This document shows positions 849 through 18,495 of a stretch of 20,537 nucleotides of DNA, piece after piece. Source of the DNA: a virus. Both the position numbers and the translations under genes were made by a program. The DNA lies in the IMG/VR virus record IMGVR_UViG_3300031787_001024, positions 1 through 20,537 of that record. One strand, written 5' to 3'. Under the pieces are notes generated by a model, which was not told the origin of the DNA, searched no databases, and saw only the letters and a list, made by a program, of their open reading frames with translations. Position 1 is the stretch's first letter, and each line of letters opens with the position of its first letter.

Positions 849-849
849 T

Positions 850-2542: not shown

Positions 2543-3413
2543 ATTTATCACATCAATTTATAGTGATTTACATGGAACCGAATTCGGGGGAAGACCTGGA
2601 AGGTTAGGTCATTATAGAAATAGTCTATTGTCATTACTAAAAATGACGGACGCTGATTTTTTATGTTATACTTCAGACAGAGAAATCGAATCACTGAAAA
2701 ATTTTTTTTATAATGAGAACTCTGTCTCTTCAGAAAAGTTGAAATTTCAAGTCTATGACATTGGAAATACCAAATTCAAAGATTTGATAAACCAATATAA
2801 AAACATTGAGCAGACAAAACAAGGAGATAGATGTATAGAGGTGCAATACAGTAAATTCCATTTTTGGTGGAATGAAGATAAATCCTACGACTATTATTAT
2901 TGGATTGACGCTGGTTTATCTCATTGTGGATTGTTTGCAAACAAATACTTAGGGAAAGACAATTATTACAGACAAATGTTTGAGTGTAGTCTTTTCAACA
3001 ATCAAATGTTGTCGAATTTGATAAAGAAAACTGGAGATAAATTTTTAATCTTGGGAAAAGACAACCAAAGACATTTTTGGTCGGGTACTGTAAATCCAAA
3101 ATGGTATAATCAATATGATTCAAGTATTCATGTGGTTGGTGGTATATTTGGAGGTCATAGAGATAAGTGGGAAAATATTGTTAATCTTTTCGAGGGATAT
3201 GTCAAAAATATTATCGAAGAGGATAAAACAATTCCACATGAAGAAAATGTTATGTCTCTAATGTATTTCAACAATCAAGAACTTTTTGAAATATTGAAAT
3301 TTGACCATTGGTGGTGTAGGGATAATGCACCAAGAGAAATACCAGATAGTTTCTTTTTAAACTACACAAGTTTCAATAAATTATTTGAAGAATTAAACGA
3401 AATTTATGAATAA
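2532..3413 (+). CDS. HtrL/YibB (WlaTC)-like glycosyltransferase
   Basis: 293 residues. It begins with KFITSIYSDLHGTEFGGRPG, followed by a helical stretch and YYYWIDAGLSHCG (residues 122-133). The W-I-D-A-G block is the hallmark of the HtrL/YibB family, which includes WlaTC-type sugar transferases of lipooligosaccharide loci, where the Asp sits in the metal and donor site. Downstream are a VVGGIFGGHRDKW block (about residues 200-212) and an EENVMSLMYF acidic helix (about 237-246), also typical. The product is probably a cytoplasmic, GT-A-like glycosyltransferase with unknown donor and acceptor. It overlaps the GT25 gene by 11 nt and the next gene by 8 nt, so the run looks like one translationally coupled transcript. 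The same landmarks recur in the N-terminal half of the next gene, making the two a likely tandem paralogous pair. Confidence 0.65.
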   Translation: MSVKFITSIYSDLHGTEFGGRPGRLGHYRNSLLSLLKMTDADFLCYTSDREIESLKNFFYNENSVSSEKLKFQVYDIGNTKFKDLINQYKNIEQTKQGDRCIEVQYSKFHFWWNEDKSYDYYYWIDAGLSHCGLFANKYLGKDNYYRQMFECSLFNNQMLSNLIKKTGDKFLILGKDNQRHFWSGTVNPKWYNQYDSSIHVVGGIFGGHRDKWENIVNLFEGYVKNIIEEDKTIPHEENVMSLMYFNNQELFEILKFDHWWCRDNAPREIPDSFFLNYTSFNKLFEELNEIYE

Positions 3414-5082
3414 GATTACATTAGTAACAGGGATTTGGGATATTGGAAGAGGGGAATTAACTGAAGGTTGGAGTAGGTCATATCAACATTATTTGGATAA
3501 GTTTGAACAACTGTTAAAAGTTGAGGAAAATTTAATTATCTATGGTGATGAGGAGTTGAGAACATTTGTTAATGAAAGAAGGTCTCAAGAAAAAACACAA
3601 TTTATAGAAAGACCTTTGAAATGGTTTACCTCATCTGAGTTTTTTCCATTGATTCAAAAAATCCGAACAAACCCTGATTGGTATAATCAAGCAGGATGGT
3701 TAAAAGAATCGACACAATCTCGTTTGGAAAACTACAATCCATTGGTTATGTCCAAAATGTTTCTATTACATGATGCAAAAATAATGGATAGGTTTGATTC
3801 CGAATATTTGTTTTGGATTGATGGTGGACTAACTAATACAGTCCATCCAGGATATTTTACACACGACAAAGTTTTGGATAAACTTTCAAAATACATTTCC
3901 AAATTCTCGTTTATCTGTTTTCCTTATGATGCTGAAAAAGAAATTCATGGGTTTGAATATAATAAATTAAATTCGATTGCTAATAACAAAGTCAACAAAG
4001 TCGCCAGGGGTGGATTTTTCGGTGGTCCGAAACACACAATAAGTGATGTCAACTCAATTTATTATGGTTTGTTGAAAAGCACTTTAGATGAAGGATATAT
4101 GGGTACTGAAGAATCAATATTCAGTATTATGTGTTATAAACATTCTGATTTATTCAATTATTTCCAAATTGAATCAAATGGTTTAATTGGCAAGTTTTTT
4201 GAAGATTTGAAAAATGATGAACTTAGAGTTAAGAATGAAAGTTCTGTTCAAGTAACTAATAATTTGGACACCAATAAAGTTGGATTGTATGTTATTACGT
4301 TCAATAGTCCAAAACAATTTAAGACATTGATTGATTCGATGTTGGCGTATGACAAAGATTATATCAATAAAACAAACAAATTTTTGTTAGACAATTCGAG
4401 TGATTTATCAACTACCGAGGAATACTCTGAAATTTGTAGAGAATTTGGATTCGAACATATCAAAAAAGACAACTTAGGTATTTGTGGGGGAAGACAATGG
4501 ATTGCAGAACACTTTCAGAATGAAACTGATTTAGATTATTATTTATTTTTTGAAGATGATATGTTTTTCTACCCCAATGAAAGAAAGGTTTGTAGAAATG
4601 GATTCAGCAGATATGTTCCAAATTTATACACTAAATCATTAGAGGTAATAAAAAAAGAAAACTTGGATTTTTTGAAACTTAATTATTCTGAGTTTTATGG
4701 CGATAATGGAGTTCAATGGAGTTGGTACAATGTCCCTCAACACGTAAGAACAGAATTTTGGCCCGACAAACCAAGATTACCTGAATTGGGACTAGACCCC
4801 AATGCACCGAAAACAAGATTCACTGAAATCCTTTCTCATAGAGGATTACCTTACGCTAAAGGAGAAATTTACTATTGTAATTGGCCTCAAATTGTAAGTA
4901 GAGTTGGTAATCAAAAAATGTTTTTGGATACAACTTGGGCACATCCATTCGAACAAACATGGATGTCTCACATGTATCAGTTAGTTAAAAAAGATGAATT
5001 GAAACCTGGATTACTATTATTAACACCCACAGAACACGATAGATTCGAACATTACAACAGAGACCTTCGTAAAGAGTCATAA
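3406..5082 (+). CDS. two-domain glycosyltransferase: HtrL/WlaTC-like + GT2-like
   Basis: 558 residues, about twice its upstream neighbour, with two recognisable halves. N-terminal half (about 1-270): ITLVTGIWDIGRGEL start, LFWIDGGLTNTVHPG (135-149, WID motif), VARGGFFGGPKH (199-210) and TEESIFSIMCY (234-244). This is the same order of landmarks as in the HtrL/WlaTC-like gene just before it. C-terminal half (about 290-558): KVGLYVITFNSPKQF (291-305) is a GT2-style opening strand and YYLFFEDDMFF (378-388) carries an E-D-D acidic motif at 383-385 like the DxD of GT-A enzymes. A lysine- and asparagine-rich linker lies at about 270-290. The protein probably performs two successive sugar transfers. 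The GT2-like call for the second half rests on the opening strand and acidic motif only. The stop is 16 bases before the next gene. Confidence 0.7.
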   Translation: MNKITLVTGIWDIGRGELTEGWSRSYQHYLDKFEQLLKVEENLIIYGDEELRTFVNERRSQEKTQFIERPLKWFTSSEFFPLIQKIRTNPDWYNQAGWLKESTQSRLENYNPLVMSKMFLLHDAKIMDRFDSEYLFWIDGGLTNTVHPGYFTHDKVLDKLSKYISKFSFICFPYDAEKEIHGFEYNKLNSIANNKVNKVARGGFFGGPKHTISDVNSIYYGLLKSTLDEGYMGTEESIFSIMCYKHSDLFNYFQIESNGLIGKFFEDLKNDELRVKNESSVQVTNNLDTNKVGLYVITFNSPKQFKTLIDSMLAYDKDYINKTNKFLLDNSSDLSTTEEYSEICREFGFEHIKKDNLGICGGRQWIAEHFQNETDLDYYLFFEDDMFFYPNERKVCRNGFSRYVPNLYTKSLEVIKKENLDFLKLNYSEFYGDNGVQWSWYNVPQHVRTEFWPDKPRLPELGLDPNAPKTRFTEILSHRGLPYAKGEIYYCNWPQIVSRVGNQKMFLDTTWAHPFEQTWMSHMYQLVKKDELKPGLLLLTPTEHDRFEHYNRDLRKES

Positions 5083-5098: not shown

Positions 5099-5476
5099 AT
5101 GGAATTTTATATCAAAAAGAATGCAACATTGCCTGTGTTAAAAATGCAAGTTGTCAAAGACGGAAGAGCAGGTTTTCAAGAATTAATGGAAGATCTCGAG
5201 GTCTCAACAATATTTTTCACTATGGTGGATGTAGAAACAGGTATTCCCAAGATTGTCTCTGCTCCATGTCAAATAGTAAGTTTAATTCTTCCTGAAGGAG
5301 CTCCAACGGAATACTACATTTATTTTAAATTCACTTCAAGAGATACAAATACTGTAGGTCGATACGAAGGACAATTCTTAATCAGAAACGATGAGGGCAG
5401 TCTAATCCTTCCAATTAGAGAACAATTGTACATCAATGTTCAAGATAGTTTCATCTCTGAAACTGCTTGTTGTTAA
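5099..5476 (+). CDS. small phage protein of unknown function, probably virion-associated
   Basis: 125 residues, no signal peptide or membrane segment. The sequence is rich in predicted beta strands: FYIKKNATLPVLKMQVV, then STIFFTMVDVETGIPKIV, then TEYYIYFKFTSRDTNTVGRYEGQF, then SLILPIREQLYINV. This layout (a strand pair with an F-x-M-x-D-x-x-T-G turn and a later G-R-Y-x-G-x-F strand) resembles the Ig-like N-terminal domain of phage baseplate and tail-fibre proteins such as BppU, but the similarity is by pattern only. The C-terminus ends in Cys-Cys. There is no Shine-Dalgarno; the first in-frame ATG at 5099 is the only start that keeps the N-terminal strand. It lies between the glycosyltransferase run and the DNA polymerase, and no neighbour settles its role. 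A non-structural role is equally possible. Confidence 0.55.
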   Translation: MEFYIKKNATLPVLKMQVVKDGRAGFQELMEDLEVSTIFFTMVDVETGIPKIVSAPCQIVSLILPEGAPTEYYIYFKFTSRDTNTVGRYEGQFLIRNDEGSLILPIREQLYINVQDSFISETACC

Positions 5477-5501
5477 TTTGACAAGACACGAATTTCATTT
5501 A

Positions 5502-5509
5502 TATTTATA
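5502..5509 (+). promoter_or_regulatory. TATTTAT-type element in the DNA polymerase leader
   Basis: TATTTATA sits in the 95-nt gap before the DNA polymerase gene, 62 bases upstream of its ATG and directed toward it. It shares the TATTTAT core with the elements before the sheath and tube genes but lacks the extended CAWTA part. It is followed by a possible short leader ORF and a weak hairpin. It could be a promoter for the polymerase, but single AT-rich octamers are weak evidence. Confidence 0.3.
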
Positions 5510-5528
5510 CATGATGAGTAAGGTAAAC

Positions 5529-5544
5529 TTCACGTTAGTGTGAA
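5529..5544 (+). promoter_or_regulatory. small hairpin and possible 10-residue leader ORF upstream of the polymerase
   Basis: TTCAC (5529-5533) and GTGAA (5540-5544) can pair around a 6-base loop, 28 bases upstream of the polymerase ATG. A mini-ORF, MMSKVNFTLV, runs from 5511 to a TGA at 5541-5543 inside the right arm. T4 DNA polymerase represses its own mRNA through a hairpin operator near its start, so a leader structure is plausible here. The stem is only 5 bp and may be chance. Confidence 0.15.
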
Positions 5545-5571
5545 AGCCAATAAACCACTCGTGATATAGAT

Positions 5572-8361
5572 ATGTTTACTGAAAAAGAAATTGAATCGTT
5601 TCTACACGGAAACGACCCCGAAGAATTTATAGTCGCCATCGAGTTCGACTACGCTTCCAACTCCATTTACAAAATCAAAGAAATTCCTGGTAAAGGGAAA
5701 GAAATCCGAAAGGATACTTTCATTCCATTCGCATGGGTTGGAGACTTACGTGATATTAATTTTTATGGTGGGTCTAAAGCTTCTCAGAAAGAAGCTATGA
5801 CCAAACATGGAATTGTAATAGAAAAGTTAGAAACCTATGGAAACGAAAGATTAGAAAAAGGGATGACTTTCTTAGTCAAGTCTCTGAAAGGATACAGAGA
5901 ACTTGTACAATTTTTTAGAGAAGGTGGTTGTGACCCTTGGGGTGAAAGAACCAAAGAAAAAATCATGATTCTATCTCCTGTCGAACAATACTTAGTTCAG
6001 AAAGAAAAAAGATTGTTCAAAGGATTCGAAGATTATAATCAAGTAACCCGATTGGTATTTGACTTGGAAACGACTGCTCTTGAACCTAAAGACGGTCGTA
6101 TATTCATGATTGGAATTAAAACAAATAAAGGATTCCACAAAGTAATCGAGTGTATAGATGAATCTCAAGAACGAGGTGCTATAACAGAATTTTTTCGAAT
6201 AATCGATGAGTTAAAACCAAGTATAATTGGTGGATACAATTCAGCGAACTTTGACTGGCATTGGATATTTGAAAGATGTAAAACACTTGGACTTGACCCT
6301 AAAAAGATATGTAAATCTTTACACCCCCAACATTCTTTTACGAGAAAAGAAAGTATGTTGAAACTTGCAAATGAAGTTGAATCATATATACAAACTTCAA
6401 TTTGGGGGTATAACGTGATTGATATTATTCACGCTGTCCGAAGAGCACAAGCAATCAATTCAAGTATCAAATCTGCGGGTTTGAAGTATATTACTCAATA
6501 CATAAACGCACAAGCGGAAGACCGAGTGTATATTGACCATTTGGACATAGCAAGTTTATACAGTAACAAAGAGGAGTTTTGGTTAAACACACAGAACGGA
6601 AATTACAGAAAAGTTGGGGTCGACCCCAAAGTCGATAAGATTTGTGAGAGTCGAACTGATGTGTATCTTAAAACAACAGGCGATGATATTGTTGAACGAT
6701 ACTTGGATGATGACTTGGACGAAACTTTGAAAGTGGACCAAGAGTTCAATCAAGGTTCATTTCTTCTTGCTGCGATGATTCCAACTACCTATGAAAGAGT
6801 TTCAACCATGGGTACTGCAACTCTATGGAAGATGTTGATGATGGCGTGGTCTTATAAACATAATATTGCAATTCCTGCGAAAGAATCCAAGACTGACTTC
6901 GTTGGAGGTCTTTCAAGACTTCTTAAAGTTGGGTATAGCAAGGACGTACTCAAACTCGACTTCTCTTCTCTATACCCCTCAATTCAGTTGGTACACGATG
7001 TATTTCCTGACTGTGACGTAACAGGGGCAATGAAGGGAATGCTCAAATGGTTCCGTGACACACGTATCAAATACAAAAACTTGGCGGAACAATATTATGA
7101 GACAGACAAGAAAAAGTCTGAATCATATGGAAACAAACAACTTCCAATTAAAATCTTTATTAACTCCATGTTCGGTGCATTGTCAGCCCCTCAGGTTTAT
7201 GCTTGGGGTGACATGTACATGGGAGAACAAATTACTTGTACGGGAAGACAGTACCTCAGACAAATGATAAAATTTTTTATGGCGAAGGGTTATGTTCCCT
7301 TAGTAATGGATACAGACGGGGTGAACTTTTCAACTCCGACTGACGCAAAAGATAGAGTTTACATTGGTAGGGGTCTCAATTGGAAAGTTAAAGAGGGAAA
7401 AGAGTATAAAGGACCTGAGGCTGATGTTGCTGAGTACAACGACATATTCATGAGAGGTGAAATGGCTTTGGATACAGATGGTGTTTGGCCTTCTTGTATT
7501 AACTTGGCTCGTAAGAACTATGCGGTAATGGATGCTAAAGGAAAAATCAAACTCACAGGAAATAGTATCAAATCAAAAAAACTTCCAATATACATCGAAG
7601 AGTTTTTGGATAAAGGAATCAAAATGTTGTTACAAGGTGATGGGAAAGGATTTGTTGAGTATTATTACGAGTATCTACAAAAAATCTATGACAAGAAAAT
7701 TCCATTGTCCAAGATTGCTCAGAGAGCTAAAGTCAAACTTAGTCTTGATGAATACAGAAAAAGACTGACAACCAAAACCAAATCAGGCAATAGTATGTCA
7801 AGAATGGCTCACATGGAACTCGCTATTCAGGAGAAACTCAATGTCAATTTGGGAGATGTAATCATGTACGTGAATAATGGTACAAAAGCTTCCCAAGGAG
7901 ATGTTCAGAAAATGACAGTAAAACAATTAAAAGATTTGAATGCTCTCAATAAACTTGAGAATCCAAATGTTAAAGAAGTAACAGATGGTGTTATTGTTAA
8001 TTGTTACATGCTTGATAAAGATATATTGGACAACAACCCTGAATTGACTGGTGATTATAATGTACCAAGAGCAATTGTGACCTTCAATAAAAGAATTGAA
8101 CCTTTGATGGTTGTATTCCAAGATGAAGTAAGAAACGGATTGATTGTAAATGAACCTGATAAAAGGGGGATATTTACAACATCTCAATGTGAGTTAATTA
8201 ATGGGCATCCATTAGCTGATGGTGACCAAGATAAACTAAAAGAAGATGTTTTGGATATTACTGAAGCGGAACTTCAATATTGGGAAAGAAGAGGATTGAG
8301 TCCTTACTATATGTATGAATTGGCTGAAGAAGGTTGGGAAAACAAGCTTATGACTGTTTAA
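5572..8361 (+). CDS. 43: family B DNA polymerase, T4 gp43-like
   Basis: 929 residues, close to T4 gp43 (898). It replicates the phage genome with built-in 3'-5' proofreading. Exonuclease motifs: Exo I LVFDLETTAL with D164/E166, Exo II GGYNSANFDWHW with N223 and D228, and a likely Exo III around Y378-D384. Polymerase motifs: motif A KLDFSSLYPSI with catalytic D463 and the S-L-Y-P-S-I block, motif B KIFINSMFG with K527, N531 and G535, and motif C VMDTDG with D580 and D582. All catalytic carboxylates expected for both activities are present, and no intein or split interrupts the motifs. The start at 5572 has no Shine-Dalgarno. The 3' end overlaps the convergent minus-strand gene by 14 nt. The gene stands apart from other replication genes, between glycosyltransferases and virion genes. 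Confidence 0.97.
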   Translation: MFTEKEIESFLHGNDPEEFIVAIEFDYASNSIYKIKEIPGKGKEIRKDTFIPFAWVGDLRDINFYGGSKASQKEAMTKHGIVIEKLETYGNERLEKGMTFLVKSLKGYRELVQFFREGGCDPWGERTKEKIMILSPVEQYLVQKEKRLFKGFEDYNQVTRLVFDLETTALEPKDGRIFMIGIKTNKGFHKVIECIDESQERGAITEFFRIIDELKPSIIGGYNSANFDWHWIFERCKTLGLDPKKICKSLHPQHSFTRKESMLKLANEVESYIQTSIWGYNVIDIIHAVRRAQAINSSIKSAGLKYITQYINAQAEDRVYIDHLDIASLYSNKEEFWLNTQNGNYRKVGVDPKVDKICESRTDVYLKTTGDDIVERYLDDDLDETLKVDQEFNQGSFLLAAMIPTTYERVSTMGTATLWKMLMMAWSYKHNIAIPAKESKTDFVGGLSRLLKVGYSKDVLKLDFSSLYPSIQLVHDVFPDCDVTGAMKGMLKWFRDTRIKYKNLAEQYYETDKKKSESYGNKQLPIKIFINSMFGALSAPQVYAWGDMYMGEQITCTGRQYLRQMIKFFMAKGYVPLVMDTDGVNFSTPTDAKDRVYIGRGLNWKVKEGKEYKGPEADVAEYNDIFMRGEMALDTDGVWPSCINLARKNYAVMDAKGKIKLTGNSIKSKKLPIYIEEFLDKGIKMLLQGDGKGFVEYYYEYLQKIYDKKIPLSKIAQRAKVKLSLDEYRKRLTTKTKSGNSMSRMAHMELAIQEKLNVNLGDVIMYVNNGTKASQGDVQKMTVKQLKDLNALNKLENPNVKEVTDGVIVNCYMLDKDILDNNPELTGDYNVPRAIVTFNKRIEPLMVVFQDEVRNGLIVNEPDKRGIFTTSQCELINGHPLADGDQDKLKEDVLDITEAELQYWERRGLSPYYMYELAEEGWENKLMTV

Positions 8362-8683
8362 GTCCGTCACTTGATAGAATATACCAATTACCACCTACAA
8401 ATCGGAATTCGATACAAGCAAATTTATCAACTACAACCTCATCATATTCTTCATCGATTTTTCCAACATCGGGGAGTATGGTGAGGCTTGTCATTGATTT
8501 TACAACAATGTGGTCTGTAGTTGAGGAATTCAAAATAACAACTGAGTTTAATACTCCTCTAACGATGATGCAACTTTCACCATTTGTTTTATAAGTCGAT
8601 TCCGAAACTACGGAAATTTCTGATGTGTTGATAACTTCCCCGCTAATAATTCTTCTTGAGGGAATTGATTTAACTATAGCCAT
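8348..8683 (-). CDS. 111-residue phage protein, probably a virion component
   Basis: 111 residues on the minus strand, starting 3 bases after the stop of the gp13-like gene, so the two are surely co-transcribed. The sequence looks all-beta: MAIVKSIPSRRIISGEV, then GESCIIVRGVLNSVVILNSS, then TDHIVVKSMTSLTILPDVG, and a conserved-looking tail VDKFACIEFRFVGGNWYIL followed by SSDGLK. The pattern of short repeated strands with a final aromatic N-W-Y strand is typical of small phage decoration or fibre-tip proteins. I do not recognise a named family, and a structural role is inferred from fold character and its place after a neck gene. Its stop codon lies inside the end of the DNA polymerase gene (14-nt convergent overlap), leaving no room for an intergenic terminator between the two transcripts. 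Confidence 0.65.
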   Translation of the reverse strand: MAIVKSIPSRRIISGEVINTSEISVVSESTYKTNGESCIIVRGVLNSVVILNSSTTDHIVVKSMTSLTILPDVGKIDEEYDEVVVDKFACIEFRFVGGNWYILSSDGLKQS

Positions 8684-8686
8684 AAA

Positions 8687-9814
8687 TTATATAACGTAAA
8701 TTTGTCGAGGCATTGCTCTAAATTTCATTTGTTTATTTAGATTCTCTGCAATCAATGCCTCTCTCTCCATAACTTTTTCAGGTCTCATTCTTGTCAACCA
8801 ACCTTCAGCCCCAATTAATTCTTCAATCAATTTAGATTTTTCATCTTTAGCTTCGGTCAGTAAACTCTGATAATCCATTATAATTTCACTATCAGGAGTT
8901 TTGAGATTACCACTGTATTTTCCTCTGACTCTCGCTAAAGTTTCTTTACAATAAGCCGTGAACCATCTTCTAACCCACTGTTGACCAGGAACGTTCAAAT
9001 CTGTCCAAGTTAATTCTTCGATTGGAACGTCTGTAGGTAATTTAATTATATCAGGATTATTTTTCAAACAATCAGCTCGACTGTCTGGTTCTACATCATA
9101 ATACCAATACCAAACGGCTTTACCGACATAAAGGTTATAATTTGACCAATTGAACTTTCCACCAGGTGTATTGTAAAGGTGAATAAGTTTCTTGCCGTCA
9201 GGAAGACCAGTAATTCTGTAAGTTAAGGAACCACCTAAAATTCTATTCAAGATGTTGGCTTCTTGCATTCTAATAAGATAGTCAAATCCTGACATCATGA
9301 AGTACGAACCTTGATAGCCCATCTGTGCATAACCCGCTTCGTTTGCTCCCAAACCAATACCACCGAAACCGAATCCACCCAAACCACCTAAACCGAATGC
9401 AGTCCAAGCTTGGTTCGAAAACCAAAGTAACTCGTTCACTTCTCTACCTGCAGGAATTTCATAAGTTTGAGTGTTTGCGCTTAAGATAAAATAATCTTTC
9501 TTTAGAACCCATGGACCTTCAGTTTGAAGACCAACTATTTTTGAGTATGAATAACTGAATTGTTGTTCGAAATCCATTGTCCTTGTAACCAAGGCTCTTG
9601 CAACAGACCTTTCATTCATATTCAAATTTACCAAGTTGACCCATTGGGAATCAATCAACCATTGAAGAATATACTCTTCATAATCTCCAACCGCCAATTC
9701 CATTAAGGAATCTAACATTTCATCTTCTAACTCGACACTTCTAAGAGGAGCACCAAGTTGATGTTTAACTCTCGTATAAATCCGACTTCTTTCTGGTTCT
9801 GGTATAACTGACAT
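8687..9814 (-). CDS. 13: neck protein, T4 gp13-like
   Basis: 375 residues (T4 gp13 is 309). The N-terminus, SRIYTRVKHQLGAPLRSVEL, followed by EDEMLDSLMELAVGDYEEYI (residues 30-49), matches the usual gp13 opening: a helix, an L-G-x-P turn and an acidic helix starting E-L-x-D-E. The C-terminal third has RRWFTAYCKETLARVRGKYS and a long helical region with an EAKDEKSKLIEELIG stretch, again typical of T4-type neck subunits. In T4, gp13 with gp14 closes the filled head below the portal and binds the tail. A glycine-rich stretch at about 141-169 (FGLGGLGGFGFGGIGLG) looks like an inserted flexible loop. There is no Shine-Dalgarno and a TATTTATA element lies 3 bases before the ATG. It is unusual that this gene lies on the strand opposite to the remaining neck and tail genes. 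Confidence 0.7.
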   Translation of the reverse strand: MSVIPEPERSRIYTRVKHQLGAPLRSVELEDEMLDSLMELAVGDYEEYILQWLIDSQWVNLVNLNMNERSVARALVTRTMDFEQQFSYSYSKIVGLQTEGPWVLKKDYFILSANTQTYEIPAGREVNELLWFSNQAWTAFGLGGLGGFGFGGIGLGANEAGYAQMGYQGSYFMMSGFDYLIRMQEANILNRILGGSLTYRITGLPDGKKLIHLYNTPGGKFNWSNYNLYVGKAVWYWYYDVEPDSRADCLKNNPDIIKLPTDVPIEELTWTDLNVPGQQWVRRWFTAYCKETLARVRGKYSGNLKTPDSEIIMDYQSLLTEAKDEKSKLIEELIGAEGWLTRMRPEKVMEREALIAENLNKQMKFRAMPRQIYVI

Positions 9815-9817
9815 ACT

Positions 9818-9825
9818 TATAAATA
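9818..9825 (-). promoter_or_regulatory. TATTTAT-type element before the gp13-like gene
   Basis: Read on the minus strand the sequence is TATTTATA, ending 3 bases before the ATG of the neck gene, within the 17-nt gap to the superoxide dismutase gene. Core and orientation match the elements before other virion genes. The very short spacing repeats that at 5088-5095 and is hard to reconcile with a normal leader. Because the octamer's reverse complement is TATAAATA, the classic T4 late-promoter core, orientation here is ambiguous. Confidence 0.25.
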
Positions 9826-9831
9826 TCTATA

Positions 9832-11370
9832 TTAATTTATTTCGTAAATTAAAGAGGATTCATTGAATACATATTGGCCCTGAGTTTGAATTGGGTCATT
9901 TTTGAAAATTAAAACTTTTTTTGTTTTGTAGTTAATAAATATCATCCAATTTACTCTATATGGTTTCACATCACCCGTATTAACTACAGTAATTTTACCA
10001 TCTTCATGTTTAATTGAAGAAAATTGTTTTACCTGACATCTATATTTTTTTCCATCAAGTTCGATAAATAAATCAATTCCTCCAAAAGCGTCTATCATTA
10101 GACCTGCACCAGATGTTTTAGTCACAGAAACTCTATCACCAAAATGTTTTTTTATGATTAAACTAGCTTCGTCTTCGGACTGTTCCCCTTTTTTCCAAAG
10201 TTTTAGTAAAACTTTGATAATATTAATAAATTCTTCGTTGTCTTTGGAAAAGATTTCATTTTTGAAAAAATTCAATGCTTTCGTAAATCGTTCAACTTCT
10301 TCAGGTGTTCTTTTTGTTTTTATTGAAAAATCAAATTTTCTGCTTGGTTGTCCAATCAAATCGATTTGTCTGTTCACCGCTTTTGTTAATAAACAAAAAG
10401 TGTTAAAATTTGTGTTAAGATTGTTCAAGACAGATCTTGCCTCGTCGGATTCAATACCATAAAATCCAGACATTTCTTTTCCTTGACTTTCAATCCAAAA
10501 ATCTTTGAATACTTCTTTCAAACTTTCAGTAACTCCATTTTGATAAATTGGTTTTATCCGCTTGTTGTTTATTAACTCTTTGAAATACTCAGTTTCAGAA
10601 CTACTACAAAATTGTGCGGGTTTTGAACTTTCAATTACTTTCTTCATTTCGGTAGATTCCAAAAGTTTAGTTTGGGTTTTCATTTCATATAGTTTCGAAA
10701 CAAAATCCCAATTCACAACTTTCCAAAAATTTGCGATGTATTCGTCTCTCTTGTTTTTGTATTTTAAGTAATATGCGTGCTCCCATAAATCCAAACCCAA
10801 AAGTGGAAATCCACCGTTTTCGACTATGTTCATTAAAGGATTATCTTGATTTGGGGTAGACATAATTTTTAAAGTGTTTCTACCTGTCAAAACCAACCAT
10901 ACCCATCCTGACCCGAATCTTTCTTTTGCAATTTCTTCGAACTTTTTCTTAAAAGAAACAAAACTTCCAAACTCTTTTGTAATCTTTTTATATAAATCTC
11001 CTGTCAACTTTTTAGGTTCAGGTGACAACATATTCCAAAAAAGTGCGTGATTAAACGCCCCACCAGCATTGTTTCTGATTGTTTTATCAAACCGACTGAT
11101 TGTTTTTATGATTTGTTCCAATTCCAAGTCACCATACTTTTTCTTGGATAGTGCATCATTTAATTTATCAACATACCCTTTGTAGTGTTTGTTGTAATGG
11201 AAATCCATTGTTTCAGGGTCGATAAATTGTTTGAGGGCTGAGTAGGAGTAAGGTAGTTTTTCTATTCCTATCTTTTTCATTTCTGTAATTAACAACTCTT
11301 TTTCTCTCGTCACTTTTTGTTCCACAATTTTAAGTTCGAGTTGTTGAATTTTTTCTTGTATTTTAGTCAT
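9832..11370 (-). CDS. Mn-type superoxide dismutase domain fused to a predicted PD-(D/E)XK nuclease-like domain
   Basis: 512 residues, against about 200 for an ordinary Fe/Mn superoxide dismutase. Residues 1-35 are lysine/glutamate-rich and could form a coiled coil. Residues about 38-228 are a full SOD: FHYNKHYKGYVDKLN with ligand H58, NNAGGAFNHALFWNML with ligand H108, FGSGWVWLV, STPNQDNPLM and GLDLWEHAYYLKY with ligands D194 and H198. All four metal ligands are kept. Gly104 together with Gln175 is the MnSOD arrangement rather than FeSOD. Residues about 230-400 are mostly helical and unrecognised. Residues about 400-512 carry a GGIDLFIELDGKKYRCQVKQ motif; D433, Q446 and K448 fit a D-(x)n-(E/Q)-x-K nuclease site, followed by an NWMIFIN strand. 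The SOD part is sure; the nuclease part is inferred from motif and strand order. It lies 40 bases after the SNF2 helicase gene on the same strand. Confidence 0.85.
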   Translation of the reverse strand: MTKIQEKIQQLELKIVEQKVTREKELLITEMKKIGIEKLPYSYSALKQFIDPETMDFHYNKHYKGYVDKLNDALSKKKYGDLELEQIIKTISRFDKTIRNNAGGAFNHALFWNMLSPEPKKLTGDLYKKITKEFGSFVSFKKKFEEIAKERFGSGWVWLVLTGRNTLKIMSTPNQDNPLMNIVENGGFPLLGLDLWEHAYYLKYKNKRDEYIANFWKVVNWDFVSKLYEMKTQTKLLESTEMKKVIESSKPAQFCSSSETEYFKELINNKRIKPIYQNGVTESLKEVFKDFWIESQGKEMSGFYGIESDEARSVLNNLNTNFNTFCLLTKAVNRQIDLIGQPSRKFDFSIKTKRTPEEVERFTKALNFFKNEIFSKDNEEFINIIKVLLKLWKKGEQSEDEASLIIKKHFGDRVSVTKTSGAGLMIDAFGGIDLFIELDGKKYRCQVKQFSSIKHEDGKITVVNTGDVKPYRVNWMIFINYKTKKVLIFKNDPIQTQGQYVFNESSLIYEIN

Positions 11371-11389
11371 TGTTGGCTTTTTAATTTAC

Positions 11390-11397
11390 TATAAATA
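11390..11397 (-). promoter_or_regulatory. TATTTAT-type element before the superoxide dismutase fusion gene
   Basis: In the 40-nt gap between the SNF2 helicase stop and the next ATG, the minus strand reads TATTTATA, 19 bases before the start codon. It has the same core and gene-directed orientation as the other elements. Its reverse complement is TATAAATA, so orientation cannot be settled from this copy alone. Confidence 0.25.
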
Positions 11398-11410
11398 ATG
11401 CTAAAATACT

Positions 11411-13162
11411 TTATTTTCTGATTTCATTAATTCTGTTTAAAATTTCTTCTGCCATATCTGATGAGTTTAAGTTGTCTCCCATAACAGTAGCAATAACTTG
11501 TTTTTTATTATTTAATATATCGTATATTATCCCTTCTATTGTATTTTCGAATATTGGATAATATACTAGTACATTATTTTTTTGGCCGTATCTATAAGCT
11601 CTATCTTCTGCTTGGGCGTGGTCAGAGGGAAGGAATGAAAGGTCATTCATGATGACAGCTTCGGCCGCGGTCAATGTTAATCCTACACCAGCGGCTTTGA
11701 TGTTTCCAACAAAAACTTTAACTTTTTCATTATCTTGAAATGAATCGACACTATGTTGTCTTTCGTGTTTGGACATCGACCCATCCACTTTTACTGCAGT
11801 TTTTCCAAAGTGTTCACAAATTTTGTTTAGTGAATCGGTAAAGTTACAGAAGATGATTACTTTTTTACCTTGTTCAACAATATTCTCAGCAATTTCTATA
11901 GTTTGAGTTATTTTTTCATCGGCAATTATTTGACGAACTTTGGTAAGTTTTGTGAATTGTACTGTGAGAGATTTTGATTCTTCAGGGTTTTTATCGTACC
12001 AATCATAATATTCCCCCATGACTTCTTCATATGCTTTGGATTTCAATCGGAGATAAACTGGAGTGATTATTTTTTCAGGTAAGTCCAAGACGTTTTCTTT
12101 GAGTCTTCTTAAAACAAGGCCTGATGTTCTATCTCTCAATTCTTCTAAATTGGATGAACCTGTAACGTTCCAAACTTTTCTACCTCCCACATTAAATTGA
12201 TATCCACTACAGTACCTAATTGCATATGCCATCCAATTCTTTGCAACAGGAGACTCTATCAAATGTAATAAGTTGAAATAATCCATAGGTCTTGAGGTCA
12301 TAGGTGTCCCAGTCAATAACCATAGTCTATCTACCCCTTTGGCAATATCATTTATAAGTTTGGTTCTTTGGGCCGTAGGATTCTTGATATAGTGTGCCTC
12401 ATCAACGACCACCAAATCAAAATTGGCAAAAGTAACTTGCGATTCATTTTTTTTCTTAGTGTCATGGAAATTTTTGATAATGTCGTAGTTTATGATAACA
12501 AAGTCATGTTCGGTACTGAAACTTTTACCTTCAGATATGAATATTGACCTTTCGGAATAATTTTCAATTTCTCTCTTCCAATTAATTTTTAAAGTAGCGG
12601 GACAGATAATCAGAATTTTCTTTGCCCCTGTTTCTAAAGCCGCTATGATAGTAGAGGTAGTCTTACCCAAACCCATATCATCGGCTAATATAAATTTTTT
12701 GTTTTCAACAAGTTTTTGGATTGCTTCTTTTTGATGTTGCAATGGTGGTCTGTGAGAATATTTTTCATAGTCTATTACAACATCTTTGACAGAATTGTCT
12801 TTTATTATTGCTGCCTTCGGAAGCCAAAAGTCATGAAACTCTTCAGTTTCGAATACTCTTCCCCAAATATGAAAAGCCTTTTCGGTGTCACACAATAACT
12901 TTTCGACCCACACCTTATCAGGTATTATAGTATAGAGTTTGTCGTCCGCCAACTTTTTAGCAAAGTATGCATCTAAAATAACCCACTTTTTAGCAACCTT
13001 TGGTTGGTTGTTATGATTATTAATAATGTATTCAGATTGACTTCTTGTGGGATAGAATTTTTTATTTATTTGAGACTTTCTTTTAAGTTCGAGTAAATAG
13101 TTATTTCCACCTTCATAAGATTCCAATAAGGATAATGCTTTCGATTCCAAACTTATATCCAT
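11411..13162 (-). CDS. SNF2-family DNA helicase/translocase (SMARCAL1-like core)
   Basis: 583 residues. It is an ATP-driven double-strand DNA translocase of superfamily 2. Motifs in order: LQHQKEAIQKL (Q-motif region, 141-151), ADDMGLGKTT (Walker A, K167), ICPATLKINWKREIE (Ia region, 186-200), VVVDEAHYIKN (Walker B DEAH, 254-257), LLTGTPMTS (motif III, 283-290), VIIFCNFTDS (motif IV, 435-444), GNIKAAGVGLTLTAA (motif V, 486-500) and QAEDRAYRYGQ (motif VI, 517-527). The SNF2-specific D-E-A-H, the N-P-T-A-Q-R helix after it, and the R-x-x-R-x-G-Q ending are all kept. Single-subunit phage SNF2 proteins of this type are thought to remodel forks or recombination intermediates, a role like that of T4 UvsW. 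The N-terminal 135 residues are an unassigned accessory domain. It is the first gene of the minus-strand block and faces the 13238 gene across a 75-nt divergent gap. Confidence 0.93.
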   Translation of the reverse strand: MDISLESKALSLLESYEGGNNYLLELKRKSQINKKFYPTRSQSEYIINNHNNQPKVAKKWVILDAYFAKKLADDKLYTIIPDKVWVEKLLCDTEKAFHIWGRVFETEEFHDFWLPKAAIIKDNSVKDVVIDYEKYSHRPPLQHQKEAIQKLVENKKFILADDMGLGKTTSTIIAALETGAKKILIICPATLKINWKREIENYSERSIFISEGKSFSTEHDFVIINYDIIKNFHDTKKKNESQVTFANFDLVVVDEAHYIKNPTAQRTKLINDIAKGVDRLWLLTGTPMTSRPMDYFNLLHLIESPVAKNWMAYAIRYCSGYQFNVGGRKVWNVTGSSNLEELRDRTSGLVLRRLKENVLDLPEKIITPVYLRLKSKAYEEVMGEYYDWYDKNPEESKSLTVQFTKLTKVRQIIADEKITQTIEIAENIVEQGKKVIIFCNFTDSLNKICEHFGKTAVKVDGSMSKHERQHSVDSFQDNEKVKVFVGNIKAAGVGLTLTAAEAVIMNDLSFLPSDHAQAEDRAYRYGQKNNVLVYYPIFENTIEGIIYDILNNKKQVIATVMGDNLNSSDMAEEILNRINEIRK

Positions 13163-13204
13163 GTATAAGAAAAATATTTGGTTAAAATATAGTTATAAAG
13201 TGAG

Positions 13205-13212
13205 TATTTATC
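13205..13212 (+). promoter_or_regulatory. TATTTATC element, candidate late promoter (neck-like gene)
   Basis: TATTTATC followed by AATATAA lies in the divergent gap between the SNF2 helicase and the 171-residue gene, 25 bases before the latter's ATG. The first 12 bases (TATTTATCAATA) are identical to those before the tube gene at 19378. It is directed toward the tail/neck block, and no comparable element is clearly directed toward the helicase. Confidence 0.45.
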
Positions 13213-13237
13213 AATATAACGGAAATCATATAGTATT

Positions 13238-13753
13238 ATGGCAGAAAAGTTGGTTCCAATCACAAGATTAGGTAAGTTCTTCGGGGCGGAAGATTATGGT
13301 TTAGATATAGGTATGGGAGAAGAATGGTTAATCGGTGATATGAATTTCACCGTTGTTCTTTACCGTATTGATAGAAGAAAAACAAAAACAGATGATGTTT
13401 ATGGTGAAGTTTTGGAGGATGGAATACAATTTTTAGCACCAGTCGAATTGAAAGGATTAGTAAAAGTTATGGCTCCTACAAGTAAATTTATTGGTACTTC
13501 GAAAGTTGAAATAAAAGAACCAGGTAATATGCAGTTCAGTATTTACCAAAAAACTCTCGATGATTTACAGGTAGAAATTTTCTTAGGAGATTACATAGGA
13601 TACTATGAATCTGAAGACCGAGTTAGGTATTATGTTGTTAGTGATGATGGATATGTGAAATCAGATAATAAACATACATATGGAGGATACAAACCTTTCT
13701 ATAGAACGATTGTTGCCACTTATGTGAGTGAAAACGAATTTAGAGGAATATAA
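13238..13753 (+). CDS. putative neck/virion structural protein (gp14 position)
   Basis: 171 residues, mostly beta with few helices: MAEKLVPITRLGKFFGAEDY, then NFTVVLYRIDRRKT, then GIQFLAPVELKGLVKVM, then NMQFSIYQKTLDDLQVEI, then LGDYIGYYESEDRVRYYVVS, and a tail ending YGGYKPFYRTIVATY. I do not recognise a family with certainty. In T4 the order is neck 13, neck 14, tail completion 15, sheath 18, tube 19. Here this gene starts the plus-strand run that leads to a gp15-like gene, sheath and tube, so the gp14 position is suggested by order alone; T4 gp14 is longer (256 residues). The stop overlaps the start of the next small gene by one base (TAATG), which implies translational coupling. A TATTTATC element lies 25 bases upstream of the start. 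Confidence 0.6.
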   Translation: MAEKLVPITRLGKFFGAEDYGLDIGMGEEWLIGDMNFTVVLYRIDRRKTKTDDVYGEVLEDGIQFLAPVELKGLVKVMAPTSKFIGTSKVEIKEPGNMQFSIYQKTLDDLQVEIFLGDYIGYYESEDRVRYYVVSDDGYVKSDNKHTYGGYKPFYRTIVATYVSENEFRGI

Positions 13754-13926
13754 TGAAATACATTATCACAGAAACACAATTGAAAAAAATAATTGAAGTA
13801 GTCTCCAACGGGGAGGTTATTTGTGATAGTTGTGGATGGTCATGGGAATTATCTGATGGAGGAGATGACCCATACTTGTGTCACAAATGTGGACACGATA
13901 ATTCTAAAGATTTAGACGATAAATAA
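13753..13926 (+). CDS. 57-residue zinc-ribbon-like small protein
   Basis: A short ORF of 57 residues that shares one base with the stop of the preceding gene (TAATG) and ends 1 base before the next ATG, so it is a tightly packed operon member. The N-terminus is MKYIITETQLKKIIEVV, an amphipathic helix. It is followed by CDSCGWSW (C24, C27), a G-G-D-D-P turn, and LCHKCGHDN (C43, C46), i.e. two C-x-x-C knuckles 15 residues apart, the pattern of a zinc ribbon. The tail is acidic and lysine-rich. Such isolated ribbons bind nucleic acid or protein partners; which applies here cannot be told. The exact fit between neighbouring genes and the intact cysteine pairs make it a real gene. Confidence 0.75.
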   Translation: MKYIITETQLKKIIEVVSNGEVICDSCGWSWELSDGGDDPYLCHKCGHDNSKDLDDK

Positions 13927-13927
13927 A

Positions 13928-14968
13928 ATGCCTTTACCAAAACAAGTAAAACCTACATTACCATTAGTTCCAAAAAAAACTTTGTTTGCTAGAAGAGAAC
14001 AACTTCTTGAATTTATAAACAAAGATGGGACTTATTTACCAAAGTCAGTATTACATGCTGACTTGGATAGGGGTATGCTTGATTTTGTTAAAGAAGATTT
14101 ACAAGTAATAACGGCAGGGAAAATTATTCCCATGCTCGACATCATCATCACAACACAAAATTGGACACAATACGTAGAGACTGCTTTATTCACTAATCTC
14201 GATTTCAATCCTGAACCTCCGTTTATTACTGTGGTTAGACAGCCTGAAGTGAAGTACGGTACAAATCCTTCACTACAATATACAATACCAAATAGAAAAC
14301 AATTCTATTATGCTTCCGTTCCAACTTGGAATGGGAATGAACAAGGAATGGATATATACACAATACCACAACCTGTTCCAGTTGACATTAATTATAGTGT
14401 AAAAATTGTTTGCAATAGAATGAGAGAGTTGAACCAACTTAATAAAATTATTATGCAAAAGTTTTCTTCAAGACAAGCATATACTTTTATTAAAGGTCAA
14501 TATGTCCCCATCGTGTTACAAAACATTACTGATGAATCACAAATGCAACTCGATTCAAGAAAATATTTTATTCAGACTTATGACTTTACAATGTTAGGTT
14601 ATTTGATTGATGAAGAAGAGTTTGAGGTTAAACCCGCTATTGCTAGGGTTGCTCAGATTATGGAATTGGATAATACGACTCTTAAAAGGAGAAGACCAAA
14701 GTTTCCCGAAAATCCTAACGAGTTTTTATCCAATTTTCTATACATCGTGGGAAATAACACTTTGAGTGAAATAGTCGAATTCAGAGCAAATATGTCTTTG
14801 ATTGGGTCAACCAACGTAGATAGTTTTGATGTTTATATAAACGGATATTATTTTGGAACTGATGTAAATGAGATTCAGATTTCAACCAATGACATTTTAA
14901 GAATCGATGTTGTTAAAACAAACAACTCATTGGAATCAACAATCAAGTTTGATTCAAAACTTGTCTAA
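13928..14968 (+). CDS. putative tail completion / sheath stabilizer protein (gp15-like)
   Basis: 346 residues. After a proline- and lysine-rich start (MPLPKQVKPTLPLVPKKT) come a helical segment and a region rich in strands: PVPVDINYSVKIVCNRMREL (about 158-177), NKIIMQKFSSRQAYTFIKGQ, and SRKYFIQTYDFTMLGYLIDE. The I-x-Y-x-V-x-I strand, the helix ending in K-F, and the Y-D-F-T-M-L-G-Y strand are what I expect of the T4 gp15/gp3 tail-terminator fold, which caps the sheath and joins it to the neck. T4 gp15 is 272 residues. The last 90 residues (VGNNTLSEIVEFRANMSLIG onward) look like an added beta domain. Position after neck-type genes and before the sheath fits. A different neck-associated role is possible. 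It is convergent with the small minus-strand gene that follows, sharing 2 bases. Confidence 0.55.
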   Translation: MPLPKQVKPTLPLVPKKTLFARREQLLEFINKDGTYLPKSVLHADLDRGMLDFVKEDLQVITAGKIIPMLDIIITTQNWTQYVETALFTNLDFNPEPPFITVVRQPEVKYGTNPSLQYTIPNRKQFYYASVPTWNGNEQGMDIYTIPQPVPVDINYSVKIVCNRMRELNQLNKIIMQKFSSRQAYTFIKGQYVPIVLQNITDESQMQLDSRKYFIQTYDFTMLGYLIDEEEFEVKPAIARVAQIMELDNTTLKRRRPKFPENPNEFLSNFLYIVGNNTLSEIVEFRANMSLIGSTNVDSFDVYINGYYFGTDVNEIQISTNDILRIDVVKTNNSLESTIKFDSKLV

Positions 14969-15120
14969 TCCTCTCCATATATATCTTTTTTCTCTTTACA
15001 CTTCTCAAAAATAAGATTTTCTAAAAACTTATAAATTTTAATCCCTTTCTTCTCACAGTACTTTTTTAGGGTTTCATGAGCTTCAGGCGATATTTTGATG
15101 TTTTTAATTTCTTTGGTCAT
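14965..15120 (-). CDS. 51-residue ribbon-helix-helix-like protein
   Basis: A small minus-strand ORF of 51 residues between the gp15-like gene and the sheath gene, with its stop at 14965-14967 overlapping the neighbour's stop. It reads MTKEIKNIKISPEAHETL, then KKYCEKKGIKIYKFLENLI, then FEKCKEKK and an acidic end. One basic strand (residues 2-10, alternating K/I) followed by two helices, with S-P-E-A-H at the strand-helix junction, is the layout of an Arc/MetJ/CopG ribbon-helix-helix DNA-binding monomer, which acts as a dimer. It may therefore be a small transcriptional regulator, antisense to its structural neighbours. The start ATG is preceded by AAAA rather than by a Shine-Dalgarno. It could also be a protein-binding adaptor without DNA contact. 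Confidence 0.6.
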   Translation of the reverse strand: MTKEIKNIKISPEAHETLKKYCEKKGIKIYKFLENLIFEKCKEKKDIYGED

Positions 15121-15205
15121 TTTTATAGGCAGAAAAAAGGTAGAATAAAATCATACTCCTTACAAATAGATATTCAAAAGTCAAGTTTTTTCACTTAGAT
15201 ATGAA

Positions 15206-15213
15206 TATTTATC
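15206..15213 (+). promoter_or_regulatory. TATTTATC element, candidate late promoter (tail sheath)
   Basis: TATTTATCATTAAAATAA lies in the 127-nt gap before the tail sheath gene, with 34 bases between the end of TATTTATC and the ATG. Its 18 bases differ at one position from those before the tail-tube gene, at the same 34-base spacing. An 8-base match to the Bacteroidota -7 box TAnnTTTG (TAAATTTG, 15221-15228) lies just downstream but has no clear -33 partner. Confidence 0.5.
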
Positions 15214-15247
15214 ATTAAAATAAATTTGCAAACAATAATTTTGAACT

Positions 15248-18200
15248 ATGTTTTTTCAAGCAACACAAGTAAATCAAAAGGTATACGTATCGCCTGGAGT
15301 ATATACGTCTGAAACTGACTTATCATTTGTGGCTCAAAGTGTAGGTGTGACTACGTTAGGTTTAGTCGGGGAAACAATTAAAGGTCCCGCATTCGAACCT
15401 ATCTTCATCACAAACTACGATGAGTTTCAAGCATATTTTGGGGGCACTGAACCCACAAAATTTATAAACACACAAATCCCAAAGTATGAAGCGGCATACA
15501 TTGCGAAATCGTATTTACAACAATCCAATCAACTTTTCGTTACAAGAATTTTAGGATTGTCAGGATATGATGCGGGGCCATCATGGAGCATCAAAGTTAC
15601 TGCAAATGTTGATCCTCTTACAATTGGTTTAAATCCAACATCAGGTACTCCTTGGACTGCAACATTTTCAGGTTCATCTTCAGGAAACACCGTAACATTT
15701 ACAGGTGGCGCATTACCTCCACAAGTACTTGCTAATTTTAACACACAATATAGAATGTCAGATGGAAGTACATCTACATTGTCCTTGGATTTTACTAATA
15801 ATCTTGATGATGTAATGGATACTCCTTCATTGTCAGCAAACACCGTTGTTGTTTATGGAGCAATTCCTGAGAGTGACTATTATGATATTACTGCAACTTA
15901 TTCAAATGTTATAAACCAATTCGCAAGTGACAGTGTTAATTTAGCTACAAATGATTTATCTTCTGACTTGAATGACCCTTGGTATTACGCAAACTTTGAT
16001 AATACATCAGGTAATGTTTACACAGGATATTCATTCTATTATTATGTTACTTCTTTAACATCAGGAGCATCTTCAACTTTCACAGGTACAATAACAGGTA
16101 GGACTTATAATTACTCAGGTACAGCTTATCCTGAATATAACAATATGGTTGTTGCAACTCTTCGTTCAAGAGGTATTTCTTTATTCACGAACAGTGCTAC
16201 AAGTGATGACCACGGACCAATTTATGAGGTAAGTGGTTTGACTGACTTGACTTTAGTATGTACTAATCAATACTCAGGAGTTACTCAATCTCCTTTCGAG
16301 ACTTTCTTAATTTCAGGTATTACTAAAGATGCAGATAATTTCTCATTTGAAACTTCTTTATTACCATCATCTTCAAAATACATCACAAAAGTTTTGGGGG
16401 TAGACAATTTTGGTAAATCAAGAAACGAAGTACCTGTATATGTTGAGGAAGTTTATGGAAATACTTTAGCTTACGCTTACAATCAAGGATACATCAGAGG
16501 ATTAAGTTGTGATTTGATTGCATTACCTAGTGCTAGAACTCAAGACCCTCAGTCAATCGCTTACAATGTTACACAATATAAATCTCCAAGTACTCCTTAT
16601 TTGGTTTCTGAATTAAGAGGAAATAAAGTTTACAACTTATTTAAATTTATTTCAATCTCTGATGGAAACGCAGCAAACGTTGAGGTTAAAGTATCAGTTT
16701 CAAACTTGTCGTTCAATAACATGACATTTGATGTGTTGGTTAGAAATTTCTTCGACACAGATGCTAATCCAATTGTGATTGAGAAGTTTACAAACTGTAA
16801 CATGGACCCAAATTCGAACAACTTTGTTGCGAAGAAAATCGGTTCGAGTGATGGTGAATACGCTTTGATTTCGAGATACATTATGGTTGAAATGGCTGAC
16901 GAAGCTCCAATAGACGCATTACCTTGTGGTTTCAACGGGTATACTCAAAGAGAATACGCATCAGTTCTGAACCCTTCACCAGTTCCAATTTTCAAAACTA
17001 AATACTATTTTCCTGGTGAAGTAATTTACAATCCTCCTTTTGGTGGAATTGCAAACACAACAGAATCTGCTGGAGATATTGTAAGAAGAAGTTACTTAGG
17101 TTTCTCAACTCAATTCGGAATAGACGAATCATTCTTACAGTACAAAGGAACTCAAAATCCTTTGAATTGGGTTACATCAATTGTACCTGTTGATGGTCAA
17201 CCATGGAACTATGTTAGTAAAGGTTTCCATATGGACTCAGGCGCTACAGTTGTTACAATATCGAATTCTTATTTGACCTCAGGTCAGACAGCTTTCGAAT
17301 GTGGTGTGGCTGATTTTACCAGTGACCCTGAAACTCAAGAAAACCCTTACTACTTTATCTACTCTAGAAAGTATACAGTATGTTTTGCTGGTGGATTCGA
17401 TGGATGGGACATTTATAGAGAGTTCAGAACCAACCAAGATAGATTCCAATTAGGTGCAACAGGATTCTTAGCGGGAGCGTCAGCTTCTCAGAGATATCCA
17501 AATGCAACAGGAGATGGTTTATTCAAGAGAATAGTTGTTCAAAACAATACTCAAGATTTTGCAAACACTGATTACTACGCATACTTACTAGGTATTCTCA
17601 CATTTGCAAATCCTGAATCTACAAACATTAACGTGTTTGCAACTTCGAGTATAGATTATGTAAATAACTCTAACCTTGTTGAAGAGGCAATTGACATGGT
17701 TCAATTCTCAAGAGCTGACTCAGTGTACATTGCAACAACACCTGACTATCAAATGTATACTCCTGACGCAACAAATTCTTTGGATATAATCTATCCTCAA
17801 GAAGCGGTTGATAATTTGGACAACACTGGAATTGATTCTAACTACACAGCGACTTACTATCCATGGATATTAACAAGAGATACTGTAAACAATACACAAA
17901 TTTACATACCACCAACTGGTGAAGTTTGTAGAAACTTGGCTTTGACAGACAATATTGCATTCCCTTGGTTCGCATCAGCGGGTTACACAAGAGGTCTTGT
18001 GAACTCCATCAAAGCAAGAGTGAAACTCACTCAAGAAGATAGAGATACTTTATACCAAGGAAGAATCAACCCAATTGCAACTTTTGCTGATGTGGGAACT
18101 GTAATTTGGGGTAATAAAACTCTTCAGGTCGCAGATACTGCACTCAACAGATTAAACGTTAGAAGATTGTTACTTCAAGCACGAAAGTTGATTTCAGCTG

Positions 18201-18457
18201 TAGCGGTAAGATTGTTGTTTGAACAAAATGACCAAATAGTTAGACAACAATTCTTAGATAGCGTTAATCCTATTTTAGATTCAATTAGAAGAGACAGAGG
18301 TCTTTATGACTTCAGAGTAACAGTGTCTTCTTCTCCTGAAGACTTAGATAGAAACACATTAACAGGAAAGATATACTTGAAACCTACGAAAGCTTTGGAA
18401 TTCATTGATATTGAATTCTTCATCACACCAACAGGTGCTTCGTTCGAAAATATCTAA
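15248..18457 (+). CDS. 18: contractile tail sheath protein, T4 gp18-like (oversized)
   Basis: 1069 residues, against 659 in T4. N-terminus: QVNQKVYVSPGVYTSETDL, then LGLVGETIKGPAFEP and DEFQAYFGG, the standard opening of contractile sheath subunits. C-terminus: NSIKARVKLTQEDRDTLYQG, NPIATFADVGTVIWGNKTL, NRLNVRRLLLQARKLISAVA and a final GKIYLKPTKALEFIDIEF strand, the conserved sheath core that forms the inter-subunit mesh. The extra length lies in the middle (roughly residues 100-700), where a Ser/Thr/Gly/Asn-rich region with FSGSSSGNTVTFTGG and SGASSTFTGTITG stretches suggests inserted beta domains exposed on the outside of the tail. Sheath subunits polymerise around the tube and contract on host contact. 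A strong terminator hairpin follows the stop by 10 bases. Upstream is the best TATTTATC element. Confidence 0.95.
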   Translation: MFFQATQVNQKVYVSPGVYTSETDLSFVAQSVGVTTLGLVGETIKGPAFEPIFITNYDEFQAYFGGTEPTKFINTQIPKYEAAYIAKSYLQQSNQLFVTRILGLSGYDAGPSWSIKVTANVDPLTIGLNPTSGTPWTATFSGSSSGNTVTFTGGALPPQVLANFNTQYRMSDGSTSTLSLDFTNNLDDVMDTPSLSANTVVVYGAIPESDYYDITATYSNVINQFASDSVNLATNDLSSDLNDPWYYANFDNTSGNVYTGYSFYYYVTSLTSGASSTFTGTITGRTYNYSGTAYPEYNNMVVATLRSRGISLFTNSATSDDHGPIYEVSGLTDLTLVCTNQYSGVTQSPFETFLISGITKDADNFSFETSLLPSSSKYITKVLGVDNFGKSRNEVPVYVEEVYGNTLAYAYNQGYIRGLSCDLIALPSARTQDPQSIAYNVTQYKSPSTPYLVSELRGNKVYNLFKFISISDGNAANVEVKVSVSNLSFNNMTFDVLVRNFFDTDANPIVIEKFTNCNMDPNSNNFVAKKIGSSDGEYALISRYIMVEMADEAPIDALPCGFNGYTQREYASVLNPSPVPIFKTKYYFPGEVIYNPPFGGIANTTESAGDIVRRSYLGFSTQFGIDESFLQYKGTQNPLNWVTSIVPVDGQPWNYVSKGFHMDSGATVVTISNSYLTSGQTAFECGVADFTSDPETQENPYYFIYSRKYTVCFAGGFDGWDIYREFRTNQDRFQLGATGFLAGASASQRYPNATGDGLFKRIVVQNNTQDFANTDYYAYLLGILTFANPESTNINVFATSSIDYVNNSNLVEEAIDMVQFSRADSVYIATTPDYQMYTPDATNSLDIIYPQEAVDNLDNTGIDSNYTATYYPWILTRDTVNNTQIYIPPTGEVCRNLALTDNIAFPWFASAGYTRGLVNSIKARVKLTQEDRDTLYQGRINPIATFADVGTVIWGNKTLQVADTALNRLNVRRLLLQARKLISAVAVRLLFEQNDQIVRQQFLDSVNPILDSIRRDRGLYDFRVTVSSSPEDLDRNTLTGKIYLKPTKALEFIDIEFFITPTGASFENI

Positions 18458-18466
18458 ATTAAAAAT

Positions 18467-18489
18467 AAGGGGGACATTGTCCCCCTTTT
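18467..18489 (+). terminator. intrinsic terminator after the sheath gene
   Basis: AAGGGGGAC (18467-18475) pairs perfectly with GTCCCCCTT (18479-18487) around an ATT loop, and the run TTTT ends at 18489. This is a 9-bp G/C-rich stem in an otherwise AT-rich region and follows the sheath stop by 10 bases. The next ATG (18496) comes 6 bases after it, so the following gene must be read by read-through or from a start inside the hairpin region. Confidence 0.85.
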
Positions 18490-18495
18490 AGCCAA

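Follow-up and report, generated by a model that had tools for sequence, protein, structure and literature searches.

Superoxide dismutases (SODs) of the Fe/Mn family are nearly always stand-alone enzymes. For a 20,537-nucleotide stretch of phage DNA (IMG/VR record IMGVR_UViG_3300031787_001024; the whole stretch is called the window here), a first-pass annotation had proposed a gene at positions 9832-11370 in which a SOD, an unrecognised helical region and a PD-(D/E)XK-like nuclease domain follow each other in one frame. This raises the question if such a protein is a stable unit, where its parts come from and what a phage would gain from joining them. The gene spans exactly these positions as a single ORF of 512 aa with an ATG start and a TAA stop; it lies on the minus strand, which the annotation had not given, and the domain order is backed by Pfam, structure prediction, Foldseek and conservation. 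Both domains are of known kinds; their stable combination appears to be undescribed, and a limited search of the open-access literature found no description of a SOD-nuclease fusion.

Conservation of the gene and its SOD domain

Scans of IMG/VR with the C-terminal half yielded 122-127 contig places per single scan, and a scan with the whole protein was also run. After removal of identical proteins, more than 100 contigs gave 69 distinct full-length fusions of 510-512 aa, all with the same domain order and at the same genomic position. Each of 11 records tested, four of them 317-326 kb long, contained exactly one SOD, always in the fused frame. Median dN/dS was lowest for the SOD (0.027), followed by the helical region (0.072), the nuclease domain (0.084) and the N-terminal helix (0.085), values obtained by simple pairwise counting with pairs that are not independent and synonymous sites close to saturation. 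The fusion ORF is not a product of chance, because its length is constant in the 69 proteins and every part is under purifying selection (dN/dS 0.03-0.09).

The SOD comprises residues 37-228 (10687..11262, minus strand), as delimited by Pfam, PDB matches and conservation. Sod_Fe_N (residues 37-116, E 1.6e-22) and Sod_Fe_C (residues 123-226, E 4.4e-40) both scored above the Pfam cut-off, and outside these two domains Pfam gave no reliable match on the 512-aa protein. The metal ligands had been numbered correctly as H58 (codon at 11197-11199), H108 (11047-11049), D194 (10789-10791) and H198 (10777-10779), all on the minus strand, and are invariant in the 69 distinct homologues. The same holds for H62, Y66, Q175, E197 and Y201, which we equate with the second-shell and dimer-bridge residues of E. 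coli SOD. With both Pfam domains in order, three His and one Asp ligands and the second-shell residues present, the description as a complete Fe/Mn SOD holds. In a phmmer search of PDB sequences, manganese SODs ranked first (about 1e-59). We take the glycine two residues ahead of the Asp ligand (G192-L193-D194), G104 and the glutamine of STPNQD (Q175) to be Mn-type features, and from these and general knowledge the fused SOD is apparently of the Mn type. Since the active site is complete and the SOD is the slowest-evolving part of the fusion, the sequences argue for a real dismutase activity.

Ordinary Mn-type SODs (SodA-like) have both SOD domains, all metal ligands and the Mn-type second-shell residues in common with the fused one. 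However, they are stand-alone proteins of about 200 aa, whereas the fusion adds a 280-aa C-terminal half and an N-terminal helical extension (residues 1-36; 11263..11370, minus strand), which lies outside the Pfam SOD match and is absent from ordinary SODs. For this extension a helix at residues 3-33 was predicted with low confidence in the full-length AlphaFold model. Among bacterial SODs the nearest come mainly from Bacteroidota, at about 50% identity, and the fused SODs form one tree group (96/81) amid Bacteroidota-type sequences, any closer placement being without support. Jumbo phages such as the PA5oct-like phages and Vibrio phage 2.275.O likewise carry Fe/Mn SODs, but these are unfused, about 180-190 aa long, about 28-31% identical and set among other neighbours. 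A stand-alone SOD-like gene of 219 aa (Sod_Fe_C 3.5e-13) was also seen in an unrelated human faecal phage (MT835482.1; L370:2881-5038), where it and the start of a helicase gene of the UvsW/SF2 type (phrog_16, 1.1e-34) overlap.

Structure prediction of the whole 512-aa protein, as proposed in the first-pass annotation, modelled the SOD part poorly, because the alignment contained close relatives only. The inter-domain geometry of this model was left unused, and neither domain arrangement nor dimer geometry was read from it. M230 would be a possible internal translation start; a Shine-Dalgarno-like sequence was found neither near it nor at the main start.

The C-terminal half and its stand-alone relatives

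The C-terminal half consists of a helical middle region (residues 232-380; 10231..10677, minus strand), delimited by the AlphaFold model and by alignment with a stand-alone relative described below, and a PD-(D/E)XK-like domain (residues 381-512; 9835..10230, minus strand), assigned from Foldseek and invariant residues. The middle region had been called helical and unrecognised; it is helical in the AlphaFold model and has no reliable Pfam match. Residues 232-512 were modelled with AlphaFold2 at pLDDT 87.6 and pTM 0.81 (52 relatives in the alignment). The top PDB matches of this half in Foldseek were all PD-(D/E)XK nucleases, in agreement with the fold suspected at the outset: the homing endonuclease I-Ssp6803I came first (2e-4, probability 1.00), further matches being archaeal Hjc (0.012), SPARDA complexes (0.026) and NhoI, with RecU lower down. 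TM-scores were modest (0.46-0.52 on the target).

The motif residues D433 (codon at 10072-10074), Q446 (10033-10035) and K448 (10027-10029), numbered correctly in the annotation, are invariant in the 69 distinct homologues. To these we add E399 (10174-10176; all four codons on the minus strand), an acidic first-helix residue that fills out the D...QxK nuclease motif. In the model, E399, D433 and Q446-x-K448 are placed on a long helix and strands at the active-site position of the superfamily. For this half, no named nuclease family could be assigned reliably from Pfam, NCBIfam, PADLOC or a profile search of PDB sequences; phrog_5018, a family of unknown function, weakly matched 26 of 31 members (best 8e-5). 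T4 late-region proteins were considered as homologues and rejected, no match exceeding those of shuffled controls. From the predicted structure, membership of the PD-(D/E)XK superfamily is thus well supported but not complete, because profile searches reach no named family and the model has no clear alpha-2 helix of the PD-(D/E)XK core.

I-Ssp6803I has the PD-(D/E)XK fold of the C-terminal domain but is a stand-alone, intron-encoded homing endonuclease of 150 aa, and a profile search of PDB sequences detected no sequence similarity between the two. The DREN domain of SPARDA (DUF4365) has in common with the C-terminal domain both the fold and D, Q and K residues, its catalytic set being D41, Q60 and K62 (PMC12205087); it is, however, joined to APAZ rather than to a SOD and belongs to a defence system that filament formation switches on. 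DREN is active only as a tetramer, similar to that of I-Ssp6803I (PMC12205087). Among Holliday junction resolvases, Hjc and RecU are resembled by fold only (Foldseek). Archaeal Hjc combines a helix Glu, an Asp and an xK motif as the C-terminal domain does, but is a small stand-alone dimer of undetectable sequence similarity.

Stand-alone relatives of the whole C-terminal half, helical region included, do exist. The 735-kb phage LR756501 encodes a 290-aa homologue, which scored 50 bits with the family profile, whereas 200 shuffled versions of it reached 4.8 bits at most; a second copy (L372, 288 aa) is 66% identical to it. Both carry the same invariant residues as the fusion but are not joined to a SOD, and no SOD was found in either record. 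Across fused and stand-alone members, only 13 columns of the nuclease domain are invariant, including E399, D427, D433, Q446 and K448. This invariance of the E/D/QxK set argues for a real nuclease activity. It also speaks against a domain that binds DNA or protein and has lost cleavage, to which the modest TM-scores and the want of a named nuclease family would be suited: even in remote stand-alone members the four motif residues persist, among positions that are mostly variable, and we regard a binding-only domain as unlikely.

Because stand-alone homologues exist in which the motif residues are invariant, the fusion probably arose when a SOD was added to a nuclease-like phage protein that already existed; we infer that the C-terminal half predates the fusion. 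No bacterial relatives of this half were found in bacterial genome contigs. In BFVD, the C-terminal half matched A0A6J5L953, a 501-aa protein of an uncultured Caudovirales phage (5.9e-18, 28% identity), which is more distantly related. Judged from its name ('superoxide dismutase') and this match, it is probably the same fusion, which may then reach beyond the lineage.

Genomic setting, lineage and host

The label 'T4-type' given to this phage is reasonable, as the window encodes a tail sheath, a tail tube, a gp13-like neck protein, a family B DNA polymerase and an SNF2 helicase. The lineage consists of very large freshwater phages, with records reaching 317-326 kb. The few named-phage relatives of the neck protein are from Flavobacterium phages and one Microcystis phage. 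Since these relatives and the nearest SODs point to Bacteroidota, the host likely belongs there.

The neighbourhood of the fusion gene is constant. Directly downstream lies the gene of the gp13-like neck protein, a head-tail adaptor (8687..9814, minus strand; phrog_211, 1.8e-9), in 69 of 69 distinct loci. Upstream we found an SNF2-family helicase gene (11411..13162, minus strand; Pfam SNF2-rel_dom 1.7e-28), similar to ZorD and other SNF2 helicases. It is likewise present in all 69 loci, in 57 of them directly adjoining and in the remaining 12 separated from the fusion by roughly 280-860 bases. A TATTTAT element (11391..11397, minus strand) is located 27-21 bases ahead of the start codon of the fusion. 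The same heptamer occurs upstream of six of 16 window genes (orf125, neck, SOD-nuclease, orf171, sheath and tube; window 5099-19420), with a binomial p of 4.7e-7 that is optimistic, the motif having been chosen by eye ahead of the test. This distribution suggests that TATTTAT is a putative late promoter of the lineage and that the fusion is expressed late.

With T4 rings as a control, no Endonuclease_7 match over the cut-off and no RuvC were found in the four records of 317-326 kb, a statement limited to these resolvase families. A single weak endonuclease VII match, in G003, was set aside, as the hit appears to be a small HNH protein in its own right. A probe for SbcC-like AAA_23 ATPases contributed nothing further.

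Some further observations concern the surroundings of the gene. SET-domain genes (L418:1808-2194, Pfam 1.9e-16, and L283:2951-3388, 2.3e-14; 37% identical to each other) adjoin both the helicase/SOD-nuclease pair (tblastn match in 32 of 69 loci) and the stand-alone nuclease gene of the 735-kb phage. The tail sheath (window 15248-18457) is unusually long, with 1069 aa, of which only the C-terminal ~215 residues match the sheath family well. Upstream of the DNA polymerase, a run of five genes (window 18-5082) includes two that match PHROG glycosyl/glucosyltransferase families and three that match nothing; it is possibly a surface-sugar or DNA-modification cluster.

Possible roles of the fused protein

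We consider it probable that the gene encodes a bifunctional polypeptide, in which an active Mn-type SOD is joined to a PD-(D/E)XK nuclease of the D...QxK type; both activities are deduced from conserved residues and modelled fold. Fe/Mn-family SODs assemble as dimers or tetramers. If the fused SOD dimerises as its family does, each particle would carry at least two nuclease domains. Since the closest nuclease folds work as dimers or tetramers and family SODs oligomerise, the SOD could serve to hold the nuclease domains together. The nuclease would act on phage or host DNA, in the simplest case on DNA that is branched or damaged, and would do so late in infection alongside the SNF2 helicase, while the attached SOD would clear superoxide at the site of DNA work. 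That the protein processes DNA of this kind is plausible because the SNF2 helicase lies upstream and neither endonuclease VII nor RuvC was detected; adjacency of the helicase is no proof of a common function, and the DNA-processing account as a whole is tentative. Somewhat more doubtful is the narrower proposal of a redox-linked nuclease, in which the active SOD, fused as an obligatory partner, would bring about oligomerisation and chemically guard or gate the phage nuclease, itself acting alongside the SNF2 helicase. If true, it would be an undescribed coupling of superoxide chemistry to phage DNA processing.

In one survey of freshwater phages, over 10% of the genomes carried oxidative-stress genes, SODs included, and such genes have been explained as host protection (PMC6802176). 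By analogy with these genes and with the stand-alone SODs of other jumbo phages, the fused SOD would be an auxiliary stress gene that shields the infected host from reactive oxygen, its union with a nuclease being incidental and serving co-expression only. An incidental join needs neither the presence of the fusion in all 69 distinct proteins nor their near-constant length nor the want of intact split genes, which makes this explanation unlikely. A conserved fusion in widespread large freshwater phages rather suggests that superoxide removal and DNA handling are linked during infection. It also allows a concrete test of what phage SODs are for: general protection of the host versus protecting or controlling one DNA-handling enzyme.

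Rather improbable is a strict redox gate, with the nuclease toggled by superoxide, peroxide or the metal state of the SOD. An active-looking SOD constitutively linked to a nuclease-like domain would provide for it, but the record of the LR756501 homologue lacks a SOD, and the nuclease half is thus not always SOD-dependent. The first-pass annotation had offered DNA protection, redox control and a scaffold as functions, and among these a catalytically dead SOD is least likely, since the active site is invariant throughout and the SOD evolves slowest. A SOD that has lost catalysis and acts solely as an oligomerisation scaffold is very improbable: family dimers and tetramers would suit the tetramers in which I-Ssp6803I and DREN (PMC12205087) work, but all four ligands and the second-shell residues are invariant, and oligomerisation is compatible with catalysis.

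That a frameshift or assembly artefact fused two genes, as the one broken copy on contig L184 might hint, is refuted by 69 distinct full-length proteins across many independent assemblies. Among relatives at the locus, none has two separate intact genes, in accordance with the single gene first proposed. The L184 copy (L184:834-2278), the sole broken one seen, consists of a shortened first part, a 356-aa ORF that is family-like up to about residue 348, followed by a separate 107-aa nuclease end; we attribute it to strain variation or an assembly error.
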